Source: Janthinobacterium rivuli
GTDB lineage: Bacteria > Pseudomonadota > Gammaproteobacteria > Burkholderiales > Burkholderiaceae_D
Direction of reading: 5' to 3'
NCBI RefSeq assembly: GCF_029690045.1
Contig: NZ_CP121464.1
Location: 4,898,001-4,962,000, forward strand
DNA: 64,000 nt
Made by a program: the position numbers and the translations under genes. Positions within the stretch are counted from its first letter, which is position 1. Each line of letters starts with the position of its first letter. Below the pieces are notes generated by a model that had not been told where the DNA came from, made no database searches, and saw only the letters and a list, made by a program, of their open reading frames with translations. Shown piece by piece: positions 4,650-27,833 of the stretch.

Positions 4650-5183
4650 ATGATGGCTGATGTGTACCTAGGACAAATCATGATGGGCGGCTTCAATTTT
4701 GCGCCGCGTGGCTTTGCAGCATGTAACGGGCAAATGCTGCCTATTGCGCAGAATCAGGCGCTGTTTTCGCTGCTGGGCACCGCTTACGGGGGGAATGGCA
4801 GCACCACCTTTGCCTTGCCTAATTTGCAAGGCTGCACTCCTGTGGGAGCTGGCAGTTCGGTGGATGGTTCCTGGCAACCCGCGCCTTATCAGACCGGCAC
4901 GCGGGCGGGGCAGGAGACTGTCACCTTGCTACCGACCCAAATTCCGCCGCACACGCATGCGGCCAATGCGGTGACGACGCCCGGCACCTCGAAAAATCCC
5001 ACGAATACCGTGTTTGGCGGCAGTGGCGCGGAATCCATCTACGGTTCGGCCGGACCGCAAGTCACCCTGTCCGGCCAGACCCTGGCGTTGGCCGGTGGCA
5101 ACCAGGCGCATCCCAACATGCAGCCGTTCTCGGTCATCAACTTCAATATCGCCTTGAACGGTATCTTCCCGTCGCGCAACTAA
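4650..5183 (+). CDS. Phage tail collar domain protein (copy 1)
   Basis: 177 aa. The N-terminus is a Collar domain (MADVYLGQIMMGGFNFAPRG, then ACNGQMLPIAQNQALFSLLG and YGGNGSTTFALPNLQG), followed by a Gly/Thr-rich middle with PPHTHAANA and a conserved C-terminal NMQPFSVINFNIALNGIFP. This is the microcystin-dependent-protein type of single-domain collar protein. It has no signal peptide. GGGAG precedes the tandem ATG codons at 4650/4653. It is first of three same-strand paralogues of identical length. Such proteins are named tail proteins by homology, but no other phage gene is nearby, so a role in a cellular surface or contractile structure is possible. The function is not known from sequence. 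Confidence 0.88.
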   Translation: MMADVYLGQIMMGGFNFAPRGFAACNGQMLPIAQNQALFSLLGTAYGGNGSTTFALPNLQGCTPVGAGSSVDGSWQPAPYQTGTRAGQETVTLLPTQIPPHTHAANAVTTPGTSKNPTNTVFGGSGAESIYGSAGPQVTLSGQTLALAGGNQAHPNMQPFSVINFNIALNGIFPSRN

Positions 5184-5213
5184 CGAATCAGCCACTTCTT
5201 ACGGAGCATAGTC

Positions 5214-5747
5214 ATGACCACACCCTATGTCGGCGAAATTCGCCTGTTTTCCTTTCCGCGCATTCCCAGCGGCTGGTTCGCCTGCGACGGCAGCCTGAAA
5301 CCGATCTCCGAATACGAAGTACTGTACGTCCTGCTGGGGACCACCTACGGCGGCGACGGCGTCACCACCTTTGCCGTGCCCGACCTGCGCGGCCAGGTTC
5401 CCCTGCACATGGGAACCGGCCCCGGCCTGAGCAGCCGCGTGATCGGACAACGCAGCGGCAGCGAATCGGTGACCCTGCTGCCGACCCAGCTGCCTTTGCA
5501 TACGCACCCGTTCAATGTGAACAGCACCCTGGCAACGGCGAATGTGCCGGCGGCCAACTTGCTGCTGACGGCCCCGTCGAATAACGACAAGATGTACACG
5601 AGCGACCTGACCGGCCTGACCGCCTATGCACTGGCACCGGCCGCCACGGGCGCGACAGGCGGCAACCTGCCGCACGAGAACACCATGCCAACCCTGACGG
5701 CCTCATTTTGCATCGCATGGGCAGGCATTTTCCCATCCCAGCAATAA
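5214..5747 (+). CDS. Phage tail collar domain protein (copy 2)
   Basis: 177 aa, starting 30 bases after copy 1 with GGAG seven bases before ATG. The collar core reads YVGEIRLFSFPRIPSGWFAC, EYEVLYVLLGTTYGGDG and TFAVPDLRGQVPLHMG. The C-terminal signature is NTMPTLTASFCIAWAGIFPS. It is the most diverged of the three in the N-terminal strand (LFSFPRIPSGW instead of GFNF-P-G). It is presumably co-transcribed with copies 1 and 3. The middle region, where the three differ most, is where specificity would sit if they are binding proteins (inference). Confidence 0.88.
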   Translation: MTTPYVGEIRLFSFPRIPSGWFACDGSLKPISEYEVLYVLLGTTYGGDGVTTFAVPDLRGQVPLHMGTGPGLSSRVIGQRSGSESVTLLPTQLPLHTHPFNVNSTLATANVPAANLLLTAPSNNDKMYTSDLTGLTAYALAPAATGATGGNLPHENTMPTLTASFCIAWAGIFPSQQ

Positions 5748-5795
5748 CAGCCGGCACGCAAGCGCAGCCCATAAAATCGATCAGGAGAACCTACC

Positions 5796-6329
5796 GTGAC
5801 ATCACCATACCTTGGCGAGATACAAGTCTTCGGCTTCAATTTCACACCCTACGGATGGGCCAGCTGCAATGGCGCCACCCTGCAAATCCAGCAATACAGC
5901 GCGCTGTTTTCCTTGATCGGCACGCAGTATGGCGGCAATGGCACCACCACCTTCCAGTTGCCCAACTTCACGGGACGCGCGCCCTGCAGCCAGGGACAAG
6001 GACCAGGCCTGACACCGCGCGTGATGGGCGAAACCTTCGGCACCAACAGTGTCACGTTGAACGCCACGGAGATGCCGAACCACAGCCATCAACTCAATGT
6101 GTACCGCCAGCCCACCGCCGCCCTGCAGCACAACACGCCGCTTTCGGGCGATGGCTTGATTGCGCTTGGCGGCACGTCCGCGTTCGTGCCGACGGCGCCA
6201 CCCAATGTATCGCTGTCCCCGTCCACGATCGGTAGTGCCGGTGGCGGACAGGCGCACGAAAACCGCCAGCCGATGCTGGCGGTCAATTTCTGCATCGCGC
6301 TGCAAGGCGAGTTTCCGTCATTCGACTAA
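5796..6329 (+). CDS. Phage tail collar domain protein (copy 3)
   Basis: 177 aa with a GTG start at 5796, supported by AGGAG eight bases upstream. The collar core reads YLGEIQVFGFNFTPYGWASC, QQYSALFSLIGTQYGGNG and TFQLPNFTGRAPCSQGQG, and the C-terminus is NRQPMLAVNFCIALQGEFPS. It is the last gene of the tandem triplet. A GC-rich hairpin follows 17 bases after the stop. Its exact length match to the other two argues for duplication with divergence under length constraint. Confidence 0.88.
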   Translation: MTSPYLGEIQVFGFNFTPYGWASCNGATLQIQQYSALFSLIGTQYGGNGTTTFQLPNFTGRAPCSQGQGPGLTPRVMGETFGTNSVTLNATEMPNHSHQLNVYRQPTAALQHNTPLSGDGLIALGGTSAFVPTAPPNVSLSPSTIGSAGGGQAHENRQPMLAVNFCIALQGEFPSFD

Positions 6330-6859: not shown

Positions 6860-9800
6860 CTACTTGAGCGGCATGGCGATACCGAACATCACCGACTGGG
6901 TCCGTCCGCTATCGATGTTCAGATTGCTGTTGTAGTCCAGTGTAATCGTCATGCCATTCGACAGCAGCAGTTTCACGCCCAGCCCCGCCGTCCAGTTGCC
7001 CGTCTGCTGCGGCACCGTGCGGATCACGTACACGGGGCCATCCGCCGCCAGGTCGGCATACGCCAGGCGCGCATCGTCGGCGCCCTGGAACTGGTGCCGG
7101 TACTCGAGCCGCGCGCGCGGGAACCATGTGCCCAGACCGCCCACATAGATGCCCTCGGCCCGGACGCCCAGCGCGCCGATGCGCGAACGCACGGTCTGCT
7201 TGAAGTAGCTCAGCGCGTTAATGCCCGCCGCCTTCTCCGTGTACGGATCAAGCTTGGCCGACATCAGTTCCACGCGGCCATACGGCGACCACATCCAGGT
7301 TTCCTGGCGCATCTCGATACCGCCGACCAGCGCGCCAAACACCTGCTTGCCGTCGCGCTCGCCCGTGGCGAAACCGCTGCCGTCACTCAGGTAGCGCGAG
7401 GCGTCGTATTGCAGGGTGCCGTAGCCGAGCACGCCGTCAAGGAAGACGCCCTTGCTCGGACGCAGGCTGCCATACACGGCCGCCACGGCGCTGTCGGCCG
7501 TGCTGCGGCTGCCGTTCTGGCCCACGTCGCTGCGGTCATGGCTGAAACCGGCGCCCACGCCCAGGGTGGCCAGGTCGCTGAGGCGGTAGTCGCCGCCCAC
7601 GCTGACACCATTCGTGCGGAAACGGAAACCCGTCTCGCGGCCATTCACATAGTGCTGGCCGAAGTCCACCGCGCCACCGAGCCACAGCGACAACGCCTGC
7701 TTCTGCGTGTCCGGCTTTTGCGGCATGTCGGGCAAACCGCTGGTGGCGCCACTGACGTCCACCTGCTGCCGCTCGCTGCTGAAACCTGTGTCAACCTGAC
7801 GCAAGGCCGCCTTGCGCATGAACGGTTTCACGGCCGTGCCGAACACGCGGTCCGCTTCGTCCGCCTGCCAGCGCGCCAGCGCCGCCGTCGGATTGCCGCT
7901 GTCGTTCGGCGGCGTCAGGCTCAGGCCAAAGTTCGAACGTCCCCAGCCATCGCCATGCAGGCTTTCCAGGCGCTGCGTGAAGTTCGACAGCTGCGCGCTG
8001 GCAAAGCGCCGCGCCGCATCGGCTTGCGCCGCCTGCAGGCCGATCACTTCCGGATCGACAGACGGGTCGCGCCGCGCCGTCACGGTCACGTTGACCACAC
8101 CCGGCTTCGAGGTGGCATACGCATTGCTCAGGGTATAGCTGACCACGGCCGCGCCGGCGAACTTGCCCGAGGCCGCAAAGCTCAGCTGGTACGACGGCTT
8201 GCCGGCCGTGCCGACATCGCGCACCACCGCCTTGCCCGCTTCCGCCGGCGCCACGCTCAGGACATTCGCCGCCGTGAACGGGCCGCCCGTGGCGCCCGCC
8301 GTCAGGTCGACGGTGACCGTCAGGCCGGCCACCACCGTGGCACTCTGGCTGAGCACTTGCGGCATCGGATTGACGGCTATCGTCGACGTCACCGGCGCCG
8401 AGGTGCCGAAGGCGTTCGACACGGTGTAGCCGATGCGGATCTCGCCGCTGGTGTTGATGCCTGGCGTGTAGACGATGTCCATACCATTGACCACCGCCGT
8501 GCCGCTGGCCGGCTGCGTGGTAATCGCCACCGCCGTGAACGGCCCGCCCGTCGCGCCTTGCGTCACGTTCAAGGTCACCGGCGTGCCGGCCAGCACCGTC
8601 GCCGTCTTGGCGACCGGGACCGGCACCGGCTGCGGCGCCACCGTCAGGCTGACCGTGGCCGGCGCGGACGTGCCGCCCGGGCCCGTCGCCGTGTAGCTGA
8701 AGGCGTCAGGGCCGAAGTAGTTCGCATTCGGCACATACATCACCTTGAAAGAGCGGCCGCTGCCGCCGCCCGCCGCGCCGCTCGACACCACCGTGACGGT
8801 GCCGTGCTGCGGCGGCGTGACGATGGTCACTGCCGTGATCGGGCTGCCATCCGTGGACGCGATGGTCAGGCTCACTTCCTGGTTGGACGAGGTGGTCGCC
8901 GTTTCATTCGGCACCGGCGGCGGCGCCTGGTTCACCTGCAGGGTCAGCGCCTGCTGCACCGTGAACTGATGCGCATCCTTCGCTTGCAAGGTAAAGGCAA
9001 AGCTGCCCGCCACGGTCGGCGTGCCGATGACGATACCCGTCGCCGCATTGAGCACCAGGCCGGTCGGCAAGGCGCCGCCGCTCACGGAATATGCGTACGG
9101 AGCGACACCGCCAGCGGCCGTGAATGTCTGGCTATACGCGTCGCCGGCGCGGATCGCCGCCAGGCTGGCCGGCGTCAGGGTCAATACCGGCGCCGCCACG
9201 GCCAGGGTGTAGCTGTTGGTCGCGCTGAACGGCGCGCCCGCACCCGTGCTGCTGTCGGTGACCTTGATGCTGAACGGGAAGCTGCCCGCCACATTCGTCG
9301 TGCCGGACAGCACGCCGGTGGCCGTGTTCAGACTCAGGCCGGCCGGCAGGCTGCCGCTGGTCACGCTGAATGTATACGGCGCCGTGCCGCCCGCCGCCGT
9401 CAGGGTCGTGCTGTAAGCCGCTTCCGCCGCTGGGTTGGGCAAGCTGGCTGGCGCCAGGCTGACCGTCGGCGCGCCCACGGTGACCGTCACGGTGCCGGGA
9501 GCGGACGTGCCGCTGCCATTCGTGGCCGTGTAGCTAAAGCTGTCGCTGCCGCTGTAACCTGGCGTCGGCGTGTAGGTGATGCTGGTGCCGCTGGCCGTCG
9601 CCGTGCCATGACTGGCGCCGGAAGCCACCGCCACCGAGCTTGCCGCGCCGCCGCCCAGGTTCAGGGTCACCGGATTGGCGCTGCTGCCGTAAGCCACCGT
9701 GGTGGTCACGGCGCCAGCGACGGGCACGGCGATCGCCACCGTGCCGGAATAGGCATGGGCGTTTGTATATGGTCCACTGCCGGTGCTGCTGTCCGTGGCG

Positions 9801-12800
9801 GTGATGCTGAAGCTGTAGGCCCCGGCCGTCGTCGGCGTGCCCGACAGGGTGCCGTTCGCCGCCAAGCTCAGCCCCACCGGCAGGCTGCCGGTGGTGACGG
9901 CATAGCTGTACGCTGCCGTGCCGCCCGAGGCGGTGATGGCCTGGCTGAAAGCGACGCCGGCCGTCATGGCCGGCAGGGTCGCCGGCGCAACGCTGATCGT
10001 TGGCGACGCCACCGTCAGCGAATAAGCCCGCGCGCCAGCATAGGGACCGCTGCCCGTCGAACTGTCCGTGGCGCGCACGGTGAAGTTGAAGGTACCGCCT
10101 GCCGTCGGCGTGCCCGCCAGCAGACCGGCACTGGACAGGCTCACGCCGGCCGGCAAGGCGCCGGCGCTGATCGCGTAGGTGTATGGTGCCAGACCATTTG
10201 CGGCCGTCAGGGTCTGGCTGTAGGCCGCGCCGACTGTTCCACCAGCTACGCTGGTTTGCACAATCGTCACCGTCGGCGTGCCCACGGTGATGGTCACGGT
10301 GGCTGCCGTCGAGGTGCCGATGCCGTTGCTGGCCGTGTAGGTAAAGCTGTCCGGCCCGCCATAACCGGCCGTCGGCGTGTAGGTAATGCTGGTGCCGCTG
10401 GCCGTCGCCGTGCCGTGCATAGCGCCAGTGGCGATGGCCACGGAAGTTGCCGCGCCGCCGCTCAGGCTCAAGGTGATCGGGTTGGCGCTGCTGCCGTAGG
10501 CTACCGTGACGCTGACATTGCCGGCAATGGGCGCACCCGGTGCCACGCTGCCGGAATAGGCGCGTGAGCCAGAGAAGGGAGCGCCTGCGCCGGTGCTGCT
10601 GTCGGTGGCGGTAATGGTGACGCTGTAAGCGCCCGCTGCCGCCGGCGTGCCGGACAGGGTGCCGTCCGCCGCCAGGGTCAAGCCAGTGGGCAGGCTGCCA
10701 GCGGTAACGGCATAGTTATAGGCTGGCGTGCCGCCCGTGGCGGTGATAGCCTGGCTGAAGGCGACGCCTGCCGTCATGGCCGGCAGGGTCGCCGGCACGA
10801 TGCTGATCGTTGGCGCAGCCACCGTCAGCGAATAAGCACGCGCGCCGGCATACGGGCCGCTGCCCGTCGAACTGTCCTCGGCGCGCACGGTGAAATTGAA
10901 CGTGCCTGCCGCCGTCGGCGTGCCCGAGAGCAAACCTGTGGACGTATTCAGGCTGAGCCCGGCTGGCAAGGCGCCAGCGCTGATCGCATAGGTGTAGGGC
11001 GCGGCGCCGTTCGCGGCAGTCACGTTCTCGCTATAGGCCGTCCCCACAGTTGCCGCGGGCACGGTGCTTGGCGTAATCGTGATGGTGGGTCCGCCAACCG
11101 TGATCGTCACAGTGGCCGGCGCCGAGGTACCCACGCCGTTGCTGGCCGTATAGGTAAAGCTGTCCGGTCCGCCGTAGCCGGCCGTCGGCGTATAGGTAAT
11201 GCTGGTGCCGTTGGATGTCGCCGTGCCATGGCTGGCGGCGGACGCCACCGCTACCGATGTTGCGGCACCGCCGCCCAGGTTCAGGGTGATCGGGTTGGCG
11301 CTGCTGCCGTAGGCCACTGTGGCGCTGACAGCACCGGCCGTCGGCGCACCAGGCGCTACCGTGCCGGAATACGCACGCGCCCCCGTATAGGGGCCGGCGC
11401 CGCCACTGCTGTCGGTCGCGGTGACCGTAAAGCTGTAGGCGCCAGCATTTGTGGGCGTGCCGGACAAGGTACCGTTCGCCGCCAGGCTCAAGCCCGCAGG
11501 CACGCTGCCGGCGGTGACGGCATAGCTGTACGCTGCCGTGCCGCCGCTGGCGGTAATGGCCTGGCTGTAGGCCACGCCCACTGTCGGCACCGGCAGGGTC
11601 GACGGGGCGACGCCGAGCGTTGGCGACGCCACCGTCAGCGAGTAGGCGCGCGCGCCCACGTACGGACCGTCGCCGGTCGAACTGTCCGTGGCGCGCACGG
11701 TGAAGTTAAAGACGCCGCCGGCCGTCGGCGTACCCGACAGCGTACCGGTAGCCGTATTCAGGCTGAGTCCGGTCGGCAGGGAGCCGGCGCTGATGGCGTA
11801 AGTGTAGGGACCCGTGCCGTTCGCGGCCGTCACAGTCTGGCTGTAGGCTAGCGCGACGGTTGCCGCCGGCACGGTGCTCGGTGCAAGGACGATGGTGGGG
11901 CTGGCAACCGTGATCGTCACGGTGGCCGGCGTCGAAGTGCCGATGCCGTTGCTGGCCGTGTAGGTAAAGCTGTCCGGCCCGCCGTAGCCTGCTGTCGGCG
12001 TATAGGTGATGCTGGTGCCGCTGGCCGTCGCCGTGCCATGCAAGGCGCTGGAGCTGATGGCCACCGACGTCGCCGCACCGCCGCTCAGGTTCAGGGTGAT
12101 CGGGTTGGCGCTGCTGCCGTAAGCCACCGTGGCGCTGGCGGCACCGGCCGTCGGCGCACCGGGCGCTACCGTGCCGGAATAGGCGCGCGCGCCCGAATAG
12201 GGGCCGGCGCCGGTACTGCTGTCGGTCGCGGTGACAGTAAAACTATAGGCCCCGGCCGCTGTGGGCGTGCCGGACAGGGTGCCGTTCGATGCCAGGGTAA
12301 GGCCTGCTGGCAGGCTGCCGGCCGTTCTGGCATAGGTGTACGTGCCGGTGCCGCCGCTGGCAGCTATCGTCTGGCTGTAGGCGACACCGGATGTCATTGC
12401 CGGCAGGGTCGTCGGCAAGATGGCGATGGTGGGCGCGGAGACCGTCAGCGTATACGGGCGCGTGCCATTGATGGCCAGCGAGTCGGTGGCGCGCACGGTG
12501 AAGTTGAAGGTGCCGCCCGCTGTCGGCGTACCCGACAGCACACCGCCAGCACTCAAGCTCATGCCAGCCGGCAAGGCGCCAGCGCTGATGACATAGGTGT
12601 ACGGCGCCGCGCCACCCGTCGATGTAAACGTTGTCGTGGGGTATGCCTGGGCCACCGTGGCATTTGGCACGGTGGCCGGCGCCACCACGATGGCCGAGGT
12701 GATCGTGACGTTGTAGACGATGGGCTGCCCCACATCGTCCCTGACGGTAAACGTGTCCGAAGTCGCGCTGAGAACTGTATTTTTGTAGCGTACGGCATTC

Positions 12801-13129
12801 GTGGCATTTGAATCTTCCAGCGTGCCATACAGCGGCGCCACCAGGGTTCCCGTCAGGCCGAACTGGGAACAAGGCGCATTGGTGTAATCCTCGTAATACT
12901 CTCCCCCCGCGACGACGCTGACGGCGCGCGGGCTCGGGCAGGTGCTGGCGGCGGAAGCCTGGCTGGAAAAAAGGGACAGCAAGACAAATAGCAAAGTTCC
13001 CGCCAGGTACATCAGCATTGACGGCGCCAGACCTTGGGCAGGCGGCGCGCCATGGGCTCCGGCAATGCAGCCATCGACACCCCGCACGGGCGTGGATAGC
13101 CATCCAAATTTCGTGAAATTTAGAAACAT
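6860..13129 (-). CDS. Giant autotransporter with Ig-like (He_PIG/cadherin-like) repeats
   Basis: 2089 aa from ATG 13129, which has GAAGGAAG just upstream; the open frame extends to 13195 without a better start. An N-terminal extension leads to a hydrophobic segment (YLAGTLLFVLLSLFSSQASA), a likely signal peptide. A short N-domain with cysteines precedes long tandem repeats: pairs of He_PIG modules (ALPAGLSL, then LSGTPTAAGTFNFTV, then ATDSSTG) alternate with a module beginning VAYGSSANPITLNL and containing YTPTAGYGGPDSFTYTASNG. Three different cadherin-like modules follow. The last roughly 280 residues form an autotransporter beta-barrel (LWLGGAVDFG, GVSVGGDYRLSD, AAVYGSLRPSKG, final FGIAMPLK). 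Type Va-like secretion to the outer membrane is expected, and the passenger is probably an adhesin. Confidence 0.9.
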   Translation of the reverse strand: MFLNFTKFGWLSTPVRGVDGCIAGAHGAPPAQGLAPSMLMYLAGTLLFVLLSLFSSQASAASTCPSPRAVSVVAGGEYYEDYTNAPCSQFGLTGTLVAPLYGTLEDSNATNAVRYKNTVLSATSDTFTVRDDVGQPIVYNVTITSAIVVAPATVPNATVAQAYPTTTFTSTGGAAPYTYVISAGALPAGMSLSAGGVLSGTPTAGGTFNFTVRATDSLAINGTRPYTLTVSAPTIAILPTTLPAMTSGVAYSQTIAASGGTGTYTYARTAGSLPAGLTLASNGTLSGTPTAAGAYSFTVTATDSSTGAGPYSGARAYSGTVAPGAPTAGAASATVAYGSSANPITLNLSGGAATSVAISSSALHGTATASGTSITYTPTAGYGGPDSFTYTASNGIGTSTPATVTITVASPTIVLAPSTVPAATVALAYSQTVTAANGTGPYTYAISAGSLPTGLSLNTATGTLSGTPTAGGVFNFTVRATDSSTGDGPYVGARAYSLTVASPTLGVAPSTLPVPTVGVAYSQAITASGGTAAYSYAVTAGSVPAGLSLAANGTLSGTPTNAGAYSFTVTATDSSGGAGPYTGARAYSGTVAPGAPTAGAVSATVAYGSSANPITLNLGGGAATSVAVASAASHGTATSNGTSITYTPTAGYGGPDSFTYTASNGVGTSAPATVTITVGGPTITITPSTVPAATVGTAYSENVTAANGAAPYTYAISAGALPAGLSLNTSTGLLSGTPTAAGTFNFTVRAEDSSTGSGPYAGARAYSLTVAAPTISIVPATLPAMTAGVAFSQAITATGGTPAYNYAVTAGSLPTGLTLAADGTLSGTPAAAGAYSVTITATDSSTGAGAPFSGSRAYSGSVAPGAPIAGNVSVTVAYGSSANPITLSLSGGAATSVAIATGAMHGTATASGTSITYTPTAGYGGPDSFTYTASNGIGTSTAATVTITVGTPTVTIVQTSVAGGTVGAAYSQTLTAANGLAPYTYAISAGALPAGVSLSSAGLLAGTPTAGGTFNFTVRATDSSTGSGPYAGARAYSLTVASPTISVAPATLPAMTAGVAFSQAITASGGTAAYSYAVTTGSLPVGLSLAANGTLSGTPTTAGAYSFSITATDSSTGSGPYTNAHAYSGTVAIAVPVAGAVTTTVAYGSSANPVTLNLGGGAASSVAVASGASHGTATASGTSITYTPTPGYSGSDSFSYTATNGSGTSAPGTVTVTVGAPTVSLAPASLPNPAAEAAYSTTLTAAGGTAPYTFSVTSGSLPAGLSLNTATGVLSGTTNVAGSFPFSIKVTDSSTGAGAPFSATNSYTLAVAAPVLTLTPASLAAIRAGDAYSQTFTAAGGVAPYAYSVSGGALPTGLVLNAATGIVIGTPTVAGSFAFTLQAKDAHQFTVQQALTLQVNQAPPPVPNETATTSSNQEVSLTIASTDGSPITAVTIVTPPQHGTVTVVSSGAAGGGSGRSFKVMYVPNANYFGPDAFSYTATGPGGTSAPATVSLTVAPQPVPVPVAKTATVLAGTPVTLNVTQGATGGPFTAVAITTQPASGTAVVNGMDIVYTPGINTSGEIRIGYTVSNAFGTSAPVTSTIAVNPMPQVLSQSATVVAGLTVTVDLTAGATGGPFTAANVLSVAPAEAGKAVVRDVGTAGKPSYQLSFAASGKFAGAAVVSYTLSNAYATSKPGVVNVTVTARRDPSVDPEVIGLQAAQADAARRFASAQLSNFTQRLESLHGDGWGRSNFGLSLTPPNDSGNPTAALARWQADEADRVFGTAVKPFMRKAALRQVDTGFSSERQQVDVSGATSGLPDMPQKPDTQKQALSLWLGGAVDFGQHYVNGRETGFRFRTNGVSVGGDYRLSDLATLGVGAGFSHDRSDVGQNGSRSTADSAVAAVYGSLRPSKGVFLDGVLGYGTLQYDASRYLSDGSGFATGERDGKQVFGALVGGIEMRQETWMWSPYGRVELMSAKLDPYTEKAAGINALSYFKQTVRSRIGALGVRAEGIYVGGLGTWFPRARLEYRHQFQGADDARLAYADLAADGPVYVIRTVPQQTGNWTAGLGVKLLLSNGMTITLDYNSNLNIDSGRTQSVMFGIAMPLK

Positions 13130-13736
13130 TTGTCTTCCTTCATACATTTTTTGGGACTGAACCTTGCCCGAATAGCCGCACACCTTGACAAACATTCACA
13201 CCGATTTTTCAGCCGCCAGTCAGCATGCAGAAAAGGTTTACCAGGATTATGAGACTTGCTTTTGATCAATGCATCCTACTATAAGTGGCATAAAAAGCAA
13301 CGATAAGGTAATGCTAAAGGCCACTGTCTTTAAGAAAAATCAAATTCCATTAAAAACTGTCTCATTTATGTCTCATTTGACAAGTGTTTTGAAAAAATAA
13401 CACTGTTTCAAGCACTGCTTCCGAGCGGAGCGTATGGCTGGCAGCGATGCCGTGGCGCGCTATTTGCGCGGCACTGAAGGGTAAAGCGCCCCCCGCTCGG
13501 CACAGGCAAGCCTGCTTTCCCCTGCTGTGTGAGATATGTGACGACGCCGCCAACACACGACGTGAATTAGCGGATGCGCGCGGCGCGCGCCTATCGTTTC
13601 GGGAGCCGCTGCCGTTTCGAACGGACAGGGTGGACGGTGGATTCTACGTGTGGCCGGGGGCTCGGGAGGCTGTCATGTCGCTAGCCACCCGCCCAACATG
13701 CCCGGCCTCGTCATCGGTATGCGGGATTTTGTATGG
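13130..13736. other. Gap of about 600 bases: leader of the giant gene, no gene seen
   Basis: 13130-13420 is AT-rich and should carry the autotransporter promoter (for example a TATAGT-like -10 on the minus strand near 13272-13277). No convincing -35 is at proper spacing. 13420-13736 is GC-rich with only open frames lacking recognisable protein features. Confidence 0.4.
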
Positions 13737-22000: not shown

Positions 22001-22217
22001 CGGTGATGGCCTGCTCAAGCGGCGCCGCCACCGTTTCGGCGATCACCTTGGGATTGGCGCCAGGATAGGCGGCGCTGACCTGCACGGTCGGCGGCGTCAC
22101 CGCAGGATATTCGCTGAGCGGCATCTGGAAGAAGGCGACGATGCCGGCGAGCACCATCAGGACCGAGAGGACGATGGCAAAGATCGGGCGGTCGATGAAG
22201 AAACGTGGGAAGGACAT
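19029..22217 (-). CDS. RND multidrug efflux permease, MexF-like (HAE1)
   Basis: 1062 aa, the length of MexF. It begins [20 protein letters not shown]. The proton-relay signature [17 protein letters not shown] lies near residue 409, and [14 protein letters not shown] and PILMTSLAFIAGVVPL are in the C-terminal half. Two large periplasmic loops and 12 transmembrane segments are expected. The start codon shares one base with the adaptor stop (TAATG), and the end overlaps the outer-membrane factor start. It uses the proton gradient to extrude drugs or solvents. The MexF-like rather than AcrB-like assignment comes from the N-terminus and length; substrates cannot be read. Confidence 0.94.
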   Translation of the reverse strand: MSFPRFFIDRPIFAIVLSVLMVLAGIVAFFQMPLSEYPAVTPPTVQVSAAYPGANPKVIAETVAAPLEQAITGVEGMQYMSSQSATDGRMTLTVTFAQGTNADMAQIQVQNRVSRALPRLPEEVQRQGVVTQKTSPDILMVVHLLSPDKRYDPLYISNYAYLQVRDELSRIPGISDVLVWGAGEYSMRLWLDPNLIAARGLTAGEVIAAVREQNVQVAAGSVGQSPDSSAAFQVTVNTLGRLTDEEQFGDIIIRTGAEGQVTRLRDVARIEMGADAYALRSLLDGEPAVALQIIQSPGANALDVAQAVRDTMQRLEENFPAGLSSRIAYDPTVFVRASLESVATTLLEAIILVVIVVVLFLRNWRASLIPLMAVPVSLIGTFAVMHLMGFSLNTLSLFGLVLSIGIVVDDAIVVVENVERHIENGEEPRQAARRAMDEVTGPIIAITSVLAAVFIPTAFLSGLQGEFYRQFALTIAISTILSAVNSLTLSPALAGLLLKPGKAKAGAGAVHDPRSLRGRAAHLLQMLGRPFQRAPDAYGNTVRKVVRVSGVALLVYGGLLALTFFGFKAVPPGFVPMQDKYYLVAIAQLPNSSSLDRTDAVAKQMSKIALAEPGVESVVAFPGLSINGFVNVPNAAVMFVMLDPFKARTTPDLTASAIAARLQAKFAGIPDGFLGVFPPPPVPGLGATGGFKMLVEDRGSAGLDALVQQTHILMTKAIESGQVAGLMTSLDVNAPQLEVAIDRTQVKSQGVRLADVFESLQIYLGSLYVNDFNRFGRTYKVTAQADAEHRMQAEAIGRLQVRNAAGDMLPLSSFVTVTPSSGPDRVVHYNGYPSADISGGAMPGVSSGQAVAVMERIAKEVLPEGMSFEWTDLTYQQKLAGDSALFIFPLCVLLAYLILAAQYNSWLLPLAVLLIVPMCLLSAIIGVWLAGGDNNIFVQIGLIVLVGLAAKNAILIVEFARSLEMEGSSALDAVIEACRLRLRPILMTSLAFIAGVVPLVFASGAGSEMRQAMGIAVFAGMLGVTLFGLFLTPVFYVVMRALAARFERHMPTPKTSMNRSTT

Positions 22218-23383
22218 TACGCGGCTCCCGAGGTTTTCGGCACGGCGATGGGCGTGCCGTCGATGCCGGCCGGCTGCGGCGTCACCTGCATGCCCGGGCG
22301 CACGAGGCCCTTGACGACGATGCGCTCGCCGGGCTGCAGCCCCTGTTCGATCACGCGCAAACCGTCGACCATCGGGCCAAGCTCGACCGGCCGGAACTCC
22401 GTCTTGTCGCCTTTGCCGACCACCAGCACATAGCGGCGCCCCTGGTCCGTGCCTATCGATTGATCGGAAACGAGCACCCTGGCTTGCTGCGCCCCCGTCT
22501 CCAGCCTGACCTTGGCAAACAGGCCGGGCGTCAGTTTGCCATCGGGGTTGTCGACCACGGCGCGGACGCGCACCGTTCCCGTCCCGCGATCAGCGGCGTT
22601 GGCCAGGAAATCGACACGGCCGGGACGCACATATGTCTTGTCCGTGGCCAGTGCCACCATGACCTTGGCCGCCTGCGCCCCACGCGCAGTGGCGCTGACG
22701 CGGCCGGCGGCGAGCGAGCGCAAATAGGTGCGCTCATCGACATCGAAATACACATGCAGGGGATCGACGGAAACGATCGTCGTCAGGGGCGTCACGCCGC
22801 TGGCGACGTAGTTGCCCTCGGTGACGAGGACTTGGCCGACTCGTCCGCTGATCGGCGCCGTGACGCGCGTGAAACCGAGCTCCAGTTGCGCGGCGTCGAG
22901 CGCGGCCCTGGCGGCGTCGACCTGTGCCTTGCCCGCATGCAGCGCTGCCGTCGCCACGTCGAGACGGTCGCGCGCGACGATCTTCGTGGCGAACAGCTGT
23001 TCGGCGCGTGCATGCTCGGTCTGCGCCAGCATCGATGCCGCCTCAGCCTCGCGCAGGCGCGCCGTGGCGGCATGCACCGCCGCCTGGAACACGCGTGGAT
23101 CGATCACAAAGAGCTTGCTGCCCTTCTCGACAAAGCGGCCTTCCGGAACGCTCACGTCCTGCAGGTAGCCAGCCACCTGCGGGCGCAGTTCAACCCGCTT
23201 GACGGCGGTCAGCGAGCCGTTGAACTCGATGTAGGGTGTTGCCTGGCGAACGATCACTTCGGCAACGGGAACGCCGGGCGGCTTGGCCGCAGCGGCAGGC
23301 GATGCCGTCTGCTTGCATCCGCTGACGGCAAGCGCGGTGACCAGCACTGCGGGGATCAGGATTATTGGTGTGACTTTCATCAT
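22217..23383 (-). CDS. RND periplasmic adaptor lipoprotein (MexE-like)
   Basis: 388 aa from ATG 23383 (ATG 23380 is equivalent), chosen for AAAGG five bases upstream and a clean lipobox AVSGC with Cys23; in-frame starts at 23410 and TTG 23431 lack a good ribosome site. Order: barrel-sandwich half (VELRPQVAGYLQDVSVPEGR), alpha-helical hairpin, second lipoyl half (FTRVTAPISGRVGQVLVTEGN), beta-barrel, and membrane-proximal domain with QGLQPGERIVVKGLVRPG. It links the permease to the outer-membrane channel and is first gene of the three-gene operon. Confidence 0.92.
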   Translation of the reverse strand: MMKVTPIILIPAVLVTALAVSGCKQTASPAAAAKPPGVPVAEVIVRQATPYIEFNGSLTAVKRVELRPQVAGYLQDVSVPEGRFVEKGSKLFVIDPRVFQAAVHAATARLREAEAASMLAQTEHARAEQLFATKIVARDRLDVATAALHAGKAQVDAARAALDAAQLELGFTRVTAPISGRVGQVLVTEGNYVASGVTPLTTIVSVDPLHVYFDVDERTYLRSLAAGRVSATARGAQAAKVMVALATDKTYVRPGRVDFLANAADRGTGTVRVRAVVDNPDGKLTPGLFAKVRLETGAQQARVLVSDQSIGTDQGRRYVLVVGKGDKTEFRPVELGPMVDGLRVIEQGLQPGERIVVKGLVRPGMQVTPQPAGIDGTPIAVPKTSGAA

Positions 23384-23442
23384 TGTGCCTTTCGCGACTG
23401 GAGTCGACATGGTTTTGTTGAGCTGAAACAACTCCCATGACC

Positions 23443-23473
23443 TTTATCCGACCTGACACACTTGGAAGGTCAA
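23443..23473 (-). promoter_or_regulatory. MerR-type promoter candidate with 19-base spacer for the MexEF-like operon
   Basis: On the minus strand, TTGACC (23473-23468) and GATAAA (23448-23443) are separated by 19 bases. The inverted pair GACCT...AGGTC lies across the spacer, which also begins with the TTCCAAG segment. Over-long 19-base spacers with a dyad between -35 and -10 are the hallmark of promoters distorted by MerR-family activators such as SoxR and CueR. It ends about 60 bases upstream of the adaptor start. No MerR-type gene is seen in the window. Confidence 0.45.
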
Positions 23474-23483
23474 GCTTTTTTAA

Positions 23484-24071
23484 GTTCGAAAGCTGCGCCA
23501 AAAGGAGTTCGCACAACCGCAGTCCCGATATGTCTTGGGCGCGTCGGGTTTGGGAACCCCCTGCCGGCTGAGCGCGATGTGGGATCGGGCCAAGCAGCAC
23601 ATTAGTACGAAGGATGATGTGGTATTGCGTGATATCCAGGCATTGGCGGCCAGGAATGCGGTACGACGCGGCGAGAACCGCAGCGGCATTCAAAAACGCA
23701 TGGCGCCCATGTCAGGCTGAATCGCCACCAGTTCGCTGATATGTCGACGCGACAACACAAGACGAATTCTGCAAATTACTAACTGGCACGCCAAATGCGA
23801 AAGTTGATGCCATTTTAATTTTCACTGTAACTGAAGTGCATTGTAAATTTCTTTGCAACTTACATGCGTGCAACAATGATACATTACTTATAAATTGCCT
23901 GGAGCAAGCGGGTAAAGATTCTACAGCTCTGATATCTTCGATACACAGGACGTGTTCGCCAAGACCGCACTCATCCGGAATCAGAGACTCGTCGTGCTTT
24001 ATCTTACGTTTATTATCGTTTTCGGGATGCCGATGGTAGTCATCCTTTCTTTTTTCTACACGAAGGATGGT
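23484..24071. other. Intergenic region between efflux operon and island genes; possible gene remnant
   Basis: A plus-strand frame is open from 23484 to 23720 (79 codons, with MWDRAKQHISTKDDVVLRDI in it) but has no good start or recognised homologue, so it may be a remnant. From about 23740 the DNA turns AT-rich. TTGCAA followed 18 bases later by TGATACAT (about 23851-23882) is a possible plus-strand promoter for the island gene. A hydrophobic in-frame extension (23952-24071) upstream of the next gene is probably leader, not coding. Confidence 0.3.
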
Positions 24072-25532
24072 ATGAAGATCAGCAAGAAATTCAAGTTACG
24101 GAAGTCTCAAGCAGAGTTGGACTTTGTCGATATAGATCCCGACCGCGATGTTCCGCTCTACATTGACTCGCAGTTGATCGGTGCTTCCAATCATGCGTTC
24201 GCGGACCGCTGCCACAACACTATTTCCAACTTTTTCTCACTCTTTTTAGAGCTGATTCAAGAAGGCGAGCAGGACCGAGCTCGTGAACTTTTTTCATATC
24301 TTGCGGAACCCAACGAAACGTGTTTGGGTTCATCCAAGGGGAAGCCAGCAGGACGTGGAGTTGGGGGCAAACAAGCAAGCGACATTTTCGAGAGCATAAT
24401 GGCGAGTAAGGCTATTGAGACAGGCATCTTGGACCATCTAGAAGATTTTCGGATTTTCGTACACGGCGTTGGACCTGATAAAGCGTCAGACATGACGACG
24501 AACATCATCCGCAAGAACCTCATCGAATACACGCAAAACCAGTGTGAATTGCATGACATTCCAATGAACAAAGCCGTGGCTACGAATCCTTGGTGGAATG
24601 CTGAGTCTCGTCGTTGGGTGCGCTCTCATGAGACGATGCTGGTCATCAATCAGCAGCCAATTCTCCTTGTGCCGAAAAGTCTCGTCTCCCGAGGTATTGC
24701 TTACACACTCGACAGGTATCACCGGCAATTTGTTCTCAATTTTGTCAAAAAGGAGCACCTTGCCTCTAACGGTCCGCACGTGCGTTATCGCGAACCGAAG
24801 AAGGGGCAAGAAGTCGGTGACGCGTATGTGACCAAAGGAGACATGGCTAAGTTCGTAGCTCCACCTGAAAAAGACTATGTTGCTGATTTCACTGCAAAGC
24901 ATCCGGCTCTGTTCAAGGAATTTAAGGACTTCACGGTAAAAAATGCACGGCCATTGACCACGTCCGAAATCAGTTCTACAGCAAACATTGGCGATTTGTG
25001 CGCTTTCCTTACTAAGACCCTAGCCGCTACGCCGACTGGCCGAGACGACGCCACGAACTATCATCGTTTGATCATCGGAATCTTGGAGTTGATCTTCCAT
25101 CCGAGTTTGACTTGCCCAAAGAAAGAAGTGCCAATAAATGATGCGCGAAAGCGTATCGACCTGACCTTTGATAATTCAGCAAAGAGTGGGCCATTTTACG
25201 AACTTCATCAGATTAGAAAAGTGTTCTGTCCGTACATCATGATCGAATGTAAGAACTATGGACATGATGTTGCTAACCCGGAACTGGATCAACTATCTGG
25301 TCGCTTGACACTAAATCGAGGGAAGTTTGGGATGTTGCTGTGCCGAGACGTGGAGAACTATGGGCGCCTAATTCAACGCTGTCGTGACTACTGGAAGGAC
25401 AAAGGAGAGGTCATCATTCCAATTTTGGACATAGATCTTGTCGAAATTTTAAAGGTGAAAGCTGGTGCACCTGACAGTCGCCCGGAAGAAATACTTTTGG
25501 CTGACAAAATCCGTAGCGTCATGCTGGCATAG
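24072..25532 (+). CDS. Unrecognised protein with C-terminal PD-(D/E)XK nuclease-like core (paralogue A)
   Basis: 486 aa from ATG 24072, with GAAGGA upstream; a GTG at 23952 would add a hydrophobic stretch absent from the paralogue. I do not recognise the family. Residues 1-165 share LDFVD, FSYLAE-x-NE, HGVGPD-x-x-SD, NIIR and YTQNQCE with the protein at 25906. A Trp-containing NPWWN lies at 172-176 and ILLVPK at 197-202. The C-terminal part has RKRIDLTF (Asp363), then IMIECKNY with Glu392 and Lys394, then NPELDQLSGRL and GMLLCR. This order fits a restriction-endonuclease-like fold of the Mrr/PD-(D/E)XK kind. It has no signal peptide. Base composition is markedly AT-richer than the neighbours, suggesting transfer. 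A DNA-directed defence nuclease is my inference. Confidence 0.75.
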   Translation: MKISKKFKLRKSQAELDFVDIDPDRDVPLYIDSQLIGASNHAFADRCHNTISNFFSLFLELIQEGEQDRARELFSYLAEPNETCLGSSKGKPAGRGVGGKQASDIFESIMASKAIETGILDHLEDFRIFVHGVGPDKASDMTTNIIRKNLIEYTQNQCELHDIPMNKAVATNPWWNAESRRWVRSHETMLVINQQPILLVPKSLVSRGIAYTLDRYHRQFVLNFVKKEHLASNGPHVRYREPKKGQEVGDAYVTKGDMAKFVAPPEKDYVADFTAKHPALFKEFKDFTVKNARPLTTSEISSTANIGDLCAFLTKTLAATPTGRDDATNYHRLIIGILELIFHPSLTCPKKEVPINDARKRIDLTFDNSAKSGPFYELHQIRKVFCPYIMIECKNYGHDVANPELDQLSGRLTLNRGKFGMLLCRDVENYGRLIQRCRDYWKDKGEVIIPILDIDLVEILKVKAGAPDSRPEEILLADKIRSVMLA

Positions 25533-25905
25533 ACTCCCACGTTCAAGAAAGTAGGGAATCTCTAAATTTATCACCGGCGGGCTGTTGTCGCTTTTCGCGT
25601 GATTCGAGCCGTCGAGACATTCCGAAAAGTGACTGGGGCATTCCCTGGACTTGGACAGCATCACCGCTTCAGACGAGCACGCTCCCACGAATTGTTGAAA
25701 CCCTGATCAATAAGAACCCACAAATTCAGAATAGCCCAAAGGGCGCCTCGCGAACAAGCACGGCATATTTGTATAGCCGCCCTCAACCAGTTACACTTTT
25801 TTGGACTAGTCGTGACTTTTGGTGATTTTCCAGAGAGAAAAATTTTGATATAACGTTTTAATGTTGGAGTTCATATCGGAAGTTCTGCACAGACTAGGAG
25901 ATTCA
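25533..25905. other. Gap between the two island paralogues, with a long startless open frame
   Basis: A plus-strand frame is open from 25517 to 25825 (about 100 codons), overlapping the end of paralogue A. It contains GIPWTWTASPLQTSTLPRIV and YSRPQPVTLFWTSRDFW but no ATG or GTG, so it looks like the decayed end of a lost gene, or chance. The last about 80 bases are AT-rich (TTTTGATATAACG near 25844-25856) and may hold a promoter for paralogue B. Confidence 0.3.
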
Positions 25906-27363
25906 ATGGCGGTAGCTGGCCCAAAGCCTTCCATGAAGGTTTCTCTGTACTTTGGCCTAGGATATGACCAGACTACACTCGATTTCGTCGATGTCCCCAT
26001 TGGAAATGACCTTGCAGTTTTTGCCGACCCGAGCCGTCTTCGGTCATTGACTTCACCTTGGGCGAGCGAGTGCAATTCACTTCTTCAGCACTTCTTCGAA
26101 GTTCTCCTGGAGCACGTTGTCAAAGGAGACGAGTACAATGCAAAAATCTTACTTTCGTATTTGGCAGAGCGGAATGAGTTCCATTTTGGCCTCTCGAAGT
26201 CGCTGTCCAACGGCAAGGCATTCGGCAAGAAATATGCAGACCGCATGTGGACAGCACTAACGAAGAGTGCTGCGGCGAAATCTGGTCTACTCACTGACAT
26301 TGAAGATACGTGCCTGTTCATCGAAGGAGTTGGTCCTGACAGGATTTCTGATGCAGTATGCAATATCTTACGCGGACCGCTAGTTCGCTACACGCAAGAT
26401 GCGTGCGAGTTCTACGGTATTCCGTTAGTTCCCAACATGAACTCAGGGCCGATTTGGAATCCCGATACCGGTCATTGGGATAACTCCCTAATCTCCCTTC
26501 CAGCCACTCCTTTTGGACCGCTTATTCTGGTTCCCAAGCTCATTGTTCGACATAAGCTAATTTACGATTATTCAACCTACTTCACTCATCATCTCCTTCC
26601 TGCAATGCAGGAGCACGAAAAAGCTATGAACACCGGACTAGTGCACACGCTTCGCGACGGGCGCAAGCGGGTCACAAAGAAAAGCCTAAAGGAAAAATAC
26701 GGTGCGGACAAGTTAGTTATCGTCGAGCAGACGCTGAGGCATCCCAATGCGCTAGAAGAATATAGAGAATCTGCTGTTAGGAACTCCAGGCCAATATCGC
26801 ACGAACGACTTGCCGACATTGAGAATATTGCTCCGCCGAACCTACGTGGATTACTAAATGATGTAACGATCATTGCGCCAGGCAAGGCCAGCGCAACCGC
26901 GTACGAAAAAGCCGTCGAAAAATTACTGACCGCCCTTTTCTACCCGTCGCTTTCGCATCCTACCCGTCAGTTTCGGATGCATGAGGGACGGAAGATAGTT
27001 GATATCAAGTTTGTGAACGACCCGCAAGGCGGTTTTTTCCACTGGCTCGGTATGCACTATCCTGCCTCCCACATATGGGTCGAATGCAAGAACTACTCGG
27101 ACGACCTTTCAAACCCAGAATTTGATCAACTAGCCGGGCGTTTCTCGCCGTCAAAAGGACAGTTTGGACTACTCGTGTGTCGATCACTCGAGAACCCGCT
27201 CGCAGCATTAAAACGATCGCAAGATACTGCACGTGATCGACGTGGCTATATCTTGGTCCTGACCGATTCCGAATTATCTGAACTCGTTAGTGACTACATT
27301 GAGAATCAGGGCGGGAGCCAGTATCCGCTGCTGCGCACGAAATTCAATGAGCTGATCATGTGA
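25906..27363 (+). CDS. Unrecognised protein with C-terminal PD-(D/E)XK nuclease-like core (paralogue B)
   Basis: 485 aa from ATG 25906, chosen for TAGGAG five bases upstream; an in-frame ATG at 25861 has none. With this start its length matches paralogue A to one residue. Shared blocks in order: LDFVDV (25-30), LLSYLAERNE (82-91), IEGVGPDRISD (139-149), NILR, RYTQDACEFYGIP (161-173), LILVPK (206-211), YPSLSHP (346-352), GRKIVDIKF with Asp366, IWVECKNY with Glu393 and Lys395, NPEFDQLAGRF and FGLLVCR. Overall identity is low, so the pair is old. The nuclease-like triad is intact in both. The middle (about 180-340) is poorly conserved and could be the recognition part. It is the last gene before the tRNA, on the opposite strand. 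Confidence 0.75.
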   Translation: MAVAGPKPSMKVSLYFGLGYDQTTLDFVDVPIGNDLAVFADPSRLRSLTSPWASECNSLLQHFFEVLLEHVVKGDEYNAKILLSYLAERNEFHFGLSKSLSNGKAFGKKYADRMWTALTKSAAAKSGLLTDIEDTCLFIEGVGPDRISDAVCNILRGPLVRYTQDACEFYGIPLVPNMNSGPIWNPDTGHWDNSLISLPATPFGPLILVPKLIVRHKLIYDYSTYFTHHLLPAMQEHEKAMNTGLVHTLRDGRKRVTKKSLKEKYGADKLVIVEQTLRHPNALEEYRESAVRNSRPISHERLADIENIAPPNLRGLLNDVTIIAPGKASATAYEKAVEKLLTALFYPSLSHPTRQFRMHEGRKIVDIKFVNDPQGGFFHWLGMHYPASHIWVECKNYSDDLSNPEFDQLAGRFSPSKGQFGLLVCRSLENPLAALKRSQDTARDRRGYILVLTDSELSELVSDYIENQGGSQYPLLRTKFNELIM

Positions 27364-27715
27364 GCGGTGCTGCAGATTTGCTAGGAAAAAAATCCAGATT
27401 TTCGCTCGACAACCTAAGCGAGCAATCGCTGCCAATGCCGCTAAACGCTGGATGAAATCCAGGATTTTTCAGCCCGCTGGTTATGAACTTATAATCACGA
27501 CCGACCCCATATGGTATTTGGCGGCATAATCCAAAAATAGACACACGCCCTGGCCGTTGAACCTCTACTTGTAGATTGCTCTAAAAATGGGGGATTAGCA
27601 CGCAATCTACGAAGAAATCGTCAGCAGGGATAACCTGTTTAACCAATACCAAATGATTGCAAACAAGCCCATGTTTTCGTAGGGATAAATGCAGGGGTAA
27701 AACCTCACACCCAAG
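27364..27715. other. Gap between island and tRNA, no gene seen
   Basis: About 350 bases of mixed composition. It contains an imperfect repeat of ATCCAG/GGAT segments near 27390-27460. I see no integrase, no transposase end and no second copy of the tRNA 3' end here, so an island boundary cannot be placed. Confidence 0.4.
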
Positions 27716-27740
27716 AAAAAGGCCACTCCGAAGAGTGGCC
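27716..27740 (-). terminator. Rho-independent terminator of the tRNA-Pro gene
   Basis: On the minus strand GGCCACTC, loop TTCG, GAGTGGCC and then TTTTTC. It has an 8-bp perfect stem, a stable tetraloop and a T-run, 16 bases beyond the tRNA 3' end. Confidence 0.9.
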
Positions 27741-27756
27741 TAGTCCTTGAATCTAA

Positions 27757-27833
27757 TGGTCGGGGCGAGAAGATTCGAACTTCCGACCCCATGCACCCCA
27801 TGCATGTACGCTACCAGGCTGCGCTACGCCCCG
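27757..27833 (-). tRNA. tRNA-Pro (anticodon GGG)
   Basis: 77 bases including an encoded CCA. Acceptor stem CGGGGCG pairs with CGCCCCG, discriminator base A. The D-arm has AGCCTGGTAG. The anticodon stem CATGC/GCATG encloses the loop ATGGGGT, giving anticodon GGG (reads CCC/CCU). The T-arm contains GTTCGAATC. tRNA genes are common integration sites, and the AT-rich island lies on its 3' side. Confidence 0.95.

Follow-up and report, generated by a model that had tools for sequence, protein, structure and literature searches.

Two neighbouring genes on the plus strand of a 64,000-nucleotide stretch of Janthinobacterium rivuli DNA (contig NZ_CP121464.1, positions 4,898,001 to 4,962,000, here called the window) raise the question of whether they encode the two parts of one machine or two proteins of one family, and what such proteins are for. 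Gene A (P0001, 24072-25532) encodes a protein of 486 aa in which an N-terminal module (N-module) is followed by a predicted PD-(D/E)XK nuclease, and gene B (P0002, 25906-27363) encodes a protein of 485 aa with, by alignment, the same architecture. A preliminary description of this DNA took the two for a long-maintained two-protein system with a possible role in defence; the observation was sound but its central interpretation is wrong. Judged from sequence, A and B are probably two separately acquired members of a family and not parts of one machine. We favour, with a probability of about 0.6, the reading that each gene encodes a complete phage-defence protein, A and B stemming from a mostly solitary nuclease family that was acquired twice at a tRNA-Pro hotspot.

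That the two genes are homologous neighbours, as the preliminary description had it with the right coordinates, is borne out by an alignment of 464 aa with 32% identity and 55% positives (E 3e-83), whose local score of 644 compares with 37.4 +/- 5.7 and a maximum of 63 in 200 shuffles. The identity is uniform along the length, with 91 of 281 aligned residues identical in the first 290 and 56 of 167 in the remainder. The N- and C-terminal motifs that had been named are found in both proteins, and the catalytic residues are indeed intact in both: D363, E392 and K394 of A (codons 25158-25160, 25245-25247 and 25251-25253) are equivalent to D366, E393 and K395 of B (27001-27003, 27082-27084 and 27088-27090). 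Each start codon is preceded by a sequence that, read by eye, resembles a ribosome-binding site (AAGGA at 24063-24067 for A, AGGAG at 25896-25900 for B), and counts of promoter- and terminator-like sites are inside the spread of shuffled sequences. The match in length between A and B is real but is no evidence of a pair, since 68 of the 78 family open reading frames (ORFs) longer than 400 aa at other loci measure 470-500 aa and near-equal length is thus a trait of the whole family.

A pair of proteins kept together over a long time as one system, such as a heterodimeric nuclease, would account for two adjacent genes on the same strand that are both intact and have conserved their catalytic residues, and it draws some support from a Bradyrhizobium locus (L080:9956-12520, one of 80 loci) where the family gene is followed, about 30 bp on, by an Mrr_cat protein that has the C-terminal domain in common with it. 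Against this, A and B are separated by 373 bp, and a second full-length member occurs in none of 80 genome loci, which are the best 80 of 138 confirmed and extend for at most 10 kb on each side, many of them stopping at contig ends, such that a more distant copy would escape; in three of the 80 the gene is split over two frames. Nor does a second full-length member occur in any of 19 viral-contig loci, and all of 20 whole genomes, where such a copy would not escape, contain exactly one full-length match, one of them (G353) with an extra, weaker N-module match on a different contig. No family match other than A and B exists in the genome from which the window comes. In the maximum-likelihood tree A clusters with two Paraburkholderia proteins (support 100/99), and B clusters with proteins from Stenotrophomonas and Luteimonas (98/83). 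The larger clades that enclose A and B are supported at 100/100 each, and forcing the two into one group lowers the log-likelihood by 232.6 units (p-AU of the approximately unbiased test 2.7e-38). Their position in separate, well-supported clades rejects a recent duplication, and co-occurrence and phylogeny together lead us to reject the two-protein system as well, to which we now give very little chance.

The C-terminal part of A (residues ~324-465, 25041-25466 on the plus strand) is, by its predicted fold, a PD-(D/E)XK nuclease, as its helices and strands follow one another as expected for that fold and the catalytic residues are present. The AlphaFold2 model of A, calculated with 76 aligned rows, reaches a mean pLDDT of 91.0 and a pTM of 0.91, and the predicted order runs helix 324-342, strands 346-351 and 364-368, helix 373-380, strand 388-394, helix 403-409, strand 419-424, helix 430-444 and strand 447-452. 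The preliminary description had proposed such a domain around the motif ECKNY, which is where the model places the fold. None of the 76 rows, which include A and B, departs from D363, E392 and K394, and R359, N395, Q407 and R411 are likewise invariant. The 76 rows comprise 74 loci together with A and B; the alignment omits L063, L069 and L082, in which the gene runs over two frames, L081, which is truncated by a contig end, and L091 and L096, which are from Stenotrophomonas, as is L089, and were set aside by choice. The top match of A in the Foldseek viral library is a phage protein that bears the name restriction endonuclease (E 0.017, probability 0.98).

The N-module of A (residues 1-290, 24072-24941 on the plus strand) is modelled with confidence when taken alone (pLDDT 94.6) and matches no solved fold in a Foldseek search of the PDB (best E 1.6). 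All of 16 N-modules, which represent three architectures and include both fused and stand-alone forms, have kept eight residues: D26, D32, E79, G86, G94, D136, D140 and P201. The least confident stretch of the A model, residues 91-100 with a mean of 56, falls within the region E79-G98, and this loop, flexible and yet conserved, is a putative binding site for a ligand or for nucleic acid. When relatives are sorted with separate profiles of the N-module and the C-terminal domain, five architectures emerge. The N-module is joined to an ECKNY-type nuclease in A, B and their like, to an E[ML]KN-type nuclease in L025, L026 and L137, and in L007-L011, L015, L140-L143, L145 and L146 to a nuclease-like part that escapes the C-terminal profile and contains an E-x-K motif, for example EFKLASN. 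It also stands alone on plasmids (L021, L023, L024, L027 and L028), and conversely the C-terminal domain follows other N-termini in L012, L013 and L022; in L012, as in the downstream gene of L080, this upstream part is Mrr_cat. In L144 and L149 the N-module is present and the C-terminal motif was not recognised. The N-module is therefore swappable, being joined to at least two types of PD-(D/E)XK nuclease or found alone on plasmids, and it looks like an interchangeable sensor with strictly kept acidic and glycine residues. One stand-alone form is nearly the sole cargo of a 6792-bp Lacticaseibacillus plasmid (L028, N-module at 942-1793), the other annotated genes of which are two for replication proteins and one hypothetical.

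The family is patchily common. With the window's genome counted in each case, a search of 300 genomes from the order with the PADLOC model gives 11 with a match, of which two match in the nuclease part only, and 2 of 40 genomes of the genus have a match, one by the nuclease part only. The adjacency of A and B seems to be a chance product of the hotspot, and yet it exposes a family that is matched in 16 of the 398 phylum genomes sampled (again with the window's genome counted, and one by a short piece) and spans about 15 phylum-level groups by the rows of the tree. Its genes are lower in G+C than their flanks in 66 of 72 loci.

The window agrees with this trend. The G+C content is 47.6% in A and 49.6% in B, compared with 65.8% in the left flank and 62.9% in the right, and the sole tRNA gene of the window, a tRNA-Pro(ggg) found by ARAGORN at 27757-27833 on the minus strand, lies beside them; the AT-rich DNA next to a tRNA gene had been noted correctly. 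The island that contains A and B (23718-27615) has no blastn match in ten loci of the genus at the same tRNA-Pro. Its right edge is inexact and falls after gene B, at 27615 at the latest, as similarity to the window restarts at 27616 in one of these loci (L127) and at 27679-27744 in the other nine; the left flank, 22200-23482, is seen in two of the ten within the fetched stretches. Immediately to the left lies the remnant of a tyrosine integrase, covering part of its C-terminal region only (23523-23717, plus strand, by tblastn). The 67 aa of this remnant are identical at 39 positions (58%, E 1e-17) to a 371-aa integrase of another genome of the genus, G331 (L130:5485-6600), which has an open reading frame and matches Phage_integrase PF00589 (E 2.8e-12), and 130-162 bp of the remnant DNA are 78-84% identical in five of the ten loci (L122, L123, L125, L129 and L130). 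A tRNA-Pro query finds at least a partial match in 40 of 40 genomes of the genus, among which A and B occur in the window's genome only and one other genome has a match to the nuclease domain. In the nearest locus, that of G315, the flanks are 97-98% identical to the window and a second copy of window positions 27742-27802, 61 bp of the tRNA 3' region at 100% identity, lies about 7.5 kb from the tRNA; the cargo at this site includes two integrase-domain genes, an AAA_15/AAA_21 ATPase and a DUF4435 protein. The tRNA-Pro site is an integration hotspot in the genus, and the island can be read as the cargo of a decayed integrative element, in keeping with the earlier suggestion of a mobile island. 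The ATPase and its DUF4435 partner behind the integrase of G315 (L122:11446-13753) form what we take to resemble the PARIS defence system at the same hotspot.

The family gene is mostly solitary: a gene on the same strand within 50 bp is found downstream in 17 of 75 loci and upstream in 10 of 79. The neighbours that were scanned, 110 of 221 eligible and mostly longer genes, were picked by hand, and among the Pfam matches listed (25 of 116 families) they include SLFN-g3 helicases (5), ResIII (4), N6_Mtase (3), Fic (3), SIR2_2 (2) and HerA-type DUF87 (2), while PADLOC names mad2/3/8, AbiO, type I methylase, HerA and SIR2 among the matches listed (25 of 350). Clusters of recurrent neighbours comprise a helicase in nine loci and a small MazG-like protein in eight. 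Fifty whole genomes contain 12 SLFN-g3 helicase genes; the search gave 13 rows, of which two lying next to each other in the same genome were counted as a single broken gene. Eight of the 12 genes, in seven genomes, lie within 8 kb of a family gene; near and far were assigned by hand from contig numbers and coordinates, and the near ones agree with the helicase ORFs of the loci. Random placement with flanks of about 10 kb gives an expectation of 0.07 and a P of 8e-14 for 7 of 11 genomes, two genomes being close kin, and it is an undemanding null, since genes of this kind tend to cluster in any case. The linkage to helicase or MazG-like genes, seen at 11 rows, implies no fewer than ten changes when mapped on the tree and was thus gained or lost many times. 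In contrast, N6_Mtase has 40 matches in 21 of the 50 genomes, and only one is adjacent to a family gene (L098; coordinates compared by hand, with six doubtful cases checked by ORF), for which reason the type I methylase is rejected as a general marker of the island. A MazG-like gene and an SLFN-g3 helicase recur together at L043:11574-14101, L101:3657-5948 and L038:11858-14239, the helicase protein of L043 itself bearing GIY-YIG and S24-peptidase domains as well, and the two are possibly a defence module in their own right. No paper on DUF2075 together with MazG was found in the literature searched. Schlafen-linked bacterial systems are cited as anti-phage in one source, where the Schlafen arrangement differs (PMC12839542).

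A possible mode of action can be proposed. The N-module would sense, or be switched by, a signal of infection, a role suggested by its conservation, its exchange between effectors and its genomic context; the PD-(D/E)XK domain would then cut DNA, either that of the invader or, as a last resort, that of the cell, and phage growth would be halted through restriction or host suicide. A and B would act in parallel with differing trigger ranges, which fits the fact that both lineages diverged long ago and are intact in the same genome, and they may have been delivered into the hotspot separately or collected by one element whose integrase has since decayed to a fragment. The defence role that was first suggested is plausible; in its favour are the predicted nuclease fold with its catalytic residues, the match to a PADLOC defence candidate, PDC-M36A, the patchy occurrence, the low G+C relative to the flanks, the linkage to SLFN-g3 helicases, and neighbours such as type I methylase, HerA, SIR2, Fic and MADS-like proteins. 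Several observations weigh against this reading. Foldseek finds nothing in the PDB for the model of A at E <=0.001, and the top match is a subunit of RNA polymerase I (E 0.045). Stand-alone N-modules exist, so the nuclease part is not always required. The neighbours include metabolic genes, with CPSase and biotin-carboxylase domains in 4 and 3 cases and ribonucleotide reductase in 2, and the counts of defence neighbours come from hand-picked genes and have no matched random-gene control. The single adjacent case among 40 for N6_Mtase implies that general clustering in defence islands is weak beside the helicase link, which is itself confined to a minority of loci. Beside the island there is no intact attachment repeat or integrase, nor does the window hold a second copy of the tRNA end, and the literature searched gave no experimental test of any protein of the family.

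Two further explanations were weighed. A and B may be modification-dependent, Mrr-like restriction enzymes of type IV that cleave foreign DNA containing modified bases and whose N-module reads the modification, a special case of the favoured explanation that we hold as a tentative possibility. It would suit a solitary nuclease with no methylase, Mrr_cat matches B below the threshold (E 0.25), and relatives of the C-terminal domain follow Mrr_cat in L012 and L080; the Pfam cut-off for Mrr_cat is nevertheless not reached, the N-module occurs without any nuclease, and its lack of a solved-fold match means that no known reader of modified bases is recognised in it. Somewhat less probable, and in our view unlikely, is that the proteins are nucleases with which plasmids and prophages exclude competing mobile elements, the stand-alone N-modules serving as immunity or decoy counterparts. 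Hits to A in 47 plasmid records, 3 of which extend over 80% of A or more, stand-alone N-modules on plasmids of 6.8 to 46.6 kb, and 18 nearly full-length members in 19 loci on predicted viral contigs, together with the existence of phrog_27295 in the PHROGs collection, would favour such a role, but predicted viral contigs may include host flanks and tblastn of A or B against 50,697 deposited phage records gives no match.

Beyond the favoured reading of A and B as complete defence proteins, a bolder and rather doubtful proposal is that the N-module represents a new, perhaps enzymatic, infection-sensing domain that is carried on at least two kinds of PD-(D/E)XK effector and acts with adjacent SLFN-g3 helicases and MazG-like nucleotide hydrolases, the stand-alone forms on small plasmids providing immunity to, or decoys for, the fused nucleases. 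The recurrent adjacency of the helicase and MazG-like genes points to a concrete and testable candidate partnership. Worth pursuing are this Schlafen-g3/MazG link, the swapped N-module and the ECKNY branch that occurs without M36B, the partner gene of PDC-M36A.

Elsewhere in the window, positions 4650-6329 encode three tandem proteins of 177 aa with similar starts of the type GEIxxFxFxxxPxGWxxCxG, which resemble phage tail-collar or microcystin-dependent proteins, and a similar trio lies near the tRNA-Pro of G318 (L131:2395-4154). On the minus strand, 6860-13195 encodes a protein of 2111 aa with repeated units, the C-terminal part of which, by eye and with no search made, is reminiscent of an autotransporter barrel.

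The preliminary description recognised no described defence family. This holds for characterised families, as neither A, B nor ten relatives match any Pfam family above the cut-off, A and B match no NCBIfam family, and a sequence search of the PDB yields nothing credible for either. It does not hold altogether, because the family is not wholly undescribed and is known, solely, as the defence candidate PDC-M36A and as phrog_27295. PDC stands for phage defence candidate in one source (PMC11514479), and such candidates are described in another as predicted through guilt-by-embedding and mostly lacking experimental validation (PMC12988326). The model PDC-M36A matches A with E 2.1e-43 and B with E 2.8e-42, and the homology covers the N-module and a related C-terminal nuclease; the best stretch, however, lies over the N-module only (profile positions 8-229 for A and 8-236 for B, of 457). 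In contrast, the Methylobacterium protein of L025 matches the entire profile (E 5.6e-241), has the motif EMKN in place of ECKNY and is followed, like its Leptolyngbya relative in L026, by two M36B genes. The plus strand of the window contains no other ORF of at least 80 aa between 23952 and 27363 that could be M36B, antisense ORFs inside the genes not having been scanned. Full membership of PDC-M36 is rejected for A and B, as the protein model fits partly and the partner gene is missing, the requirement for M36B being deduced from how the models are named and from the loci L025 and L026, not from the rule file of PADLOC. No paper naming PDC-M36 was found in the literature searched.

The match to phrog_27295 is nearly full length, with E 1.7e-149 for B, residues 10-484 of which cover positions 1-469 of the 469 in the profile, and E 5.3e-86 for A; it differs from a described system in being a sequence cluster with no function, and tblastn of A and B matches no deposited phage record. 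With Mrr_cat and the type IV nucleases, A and B share the core D...ExK of PD-(D/E)XK enzymes, and relatives of the C-terminal domain sit after Mrr_cat, but the 11.9 bits of B remain below the Pfam cut-off of 21 and A has no match at all. Cap4, Can2 and FokI-type enzymes combine a sensor or recognition part with a restriction-endonuclease-like domain. A and B are reminiscent of these enzymes in the layout of a sensor followed by a nuclease, and the Foldseek matches of A in the PDB (Nt.BspD6I E 0.047, FokI E 0.061, Can2 E 1.0 and Cap4 E 1.1) are weak, those to FokI and Nt.BspD6I spanning E 0.05-0.2; A and B differ from them in that Pfam detects neither SAVED nor CARF.

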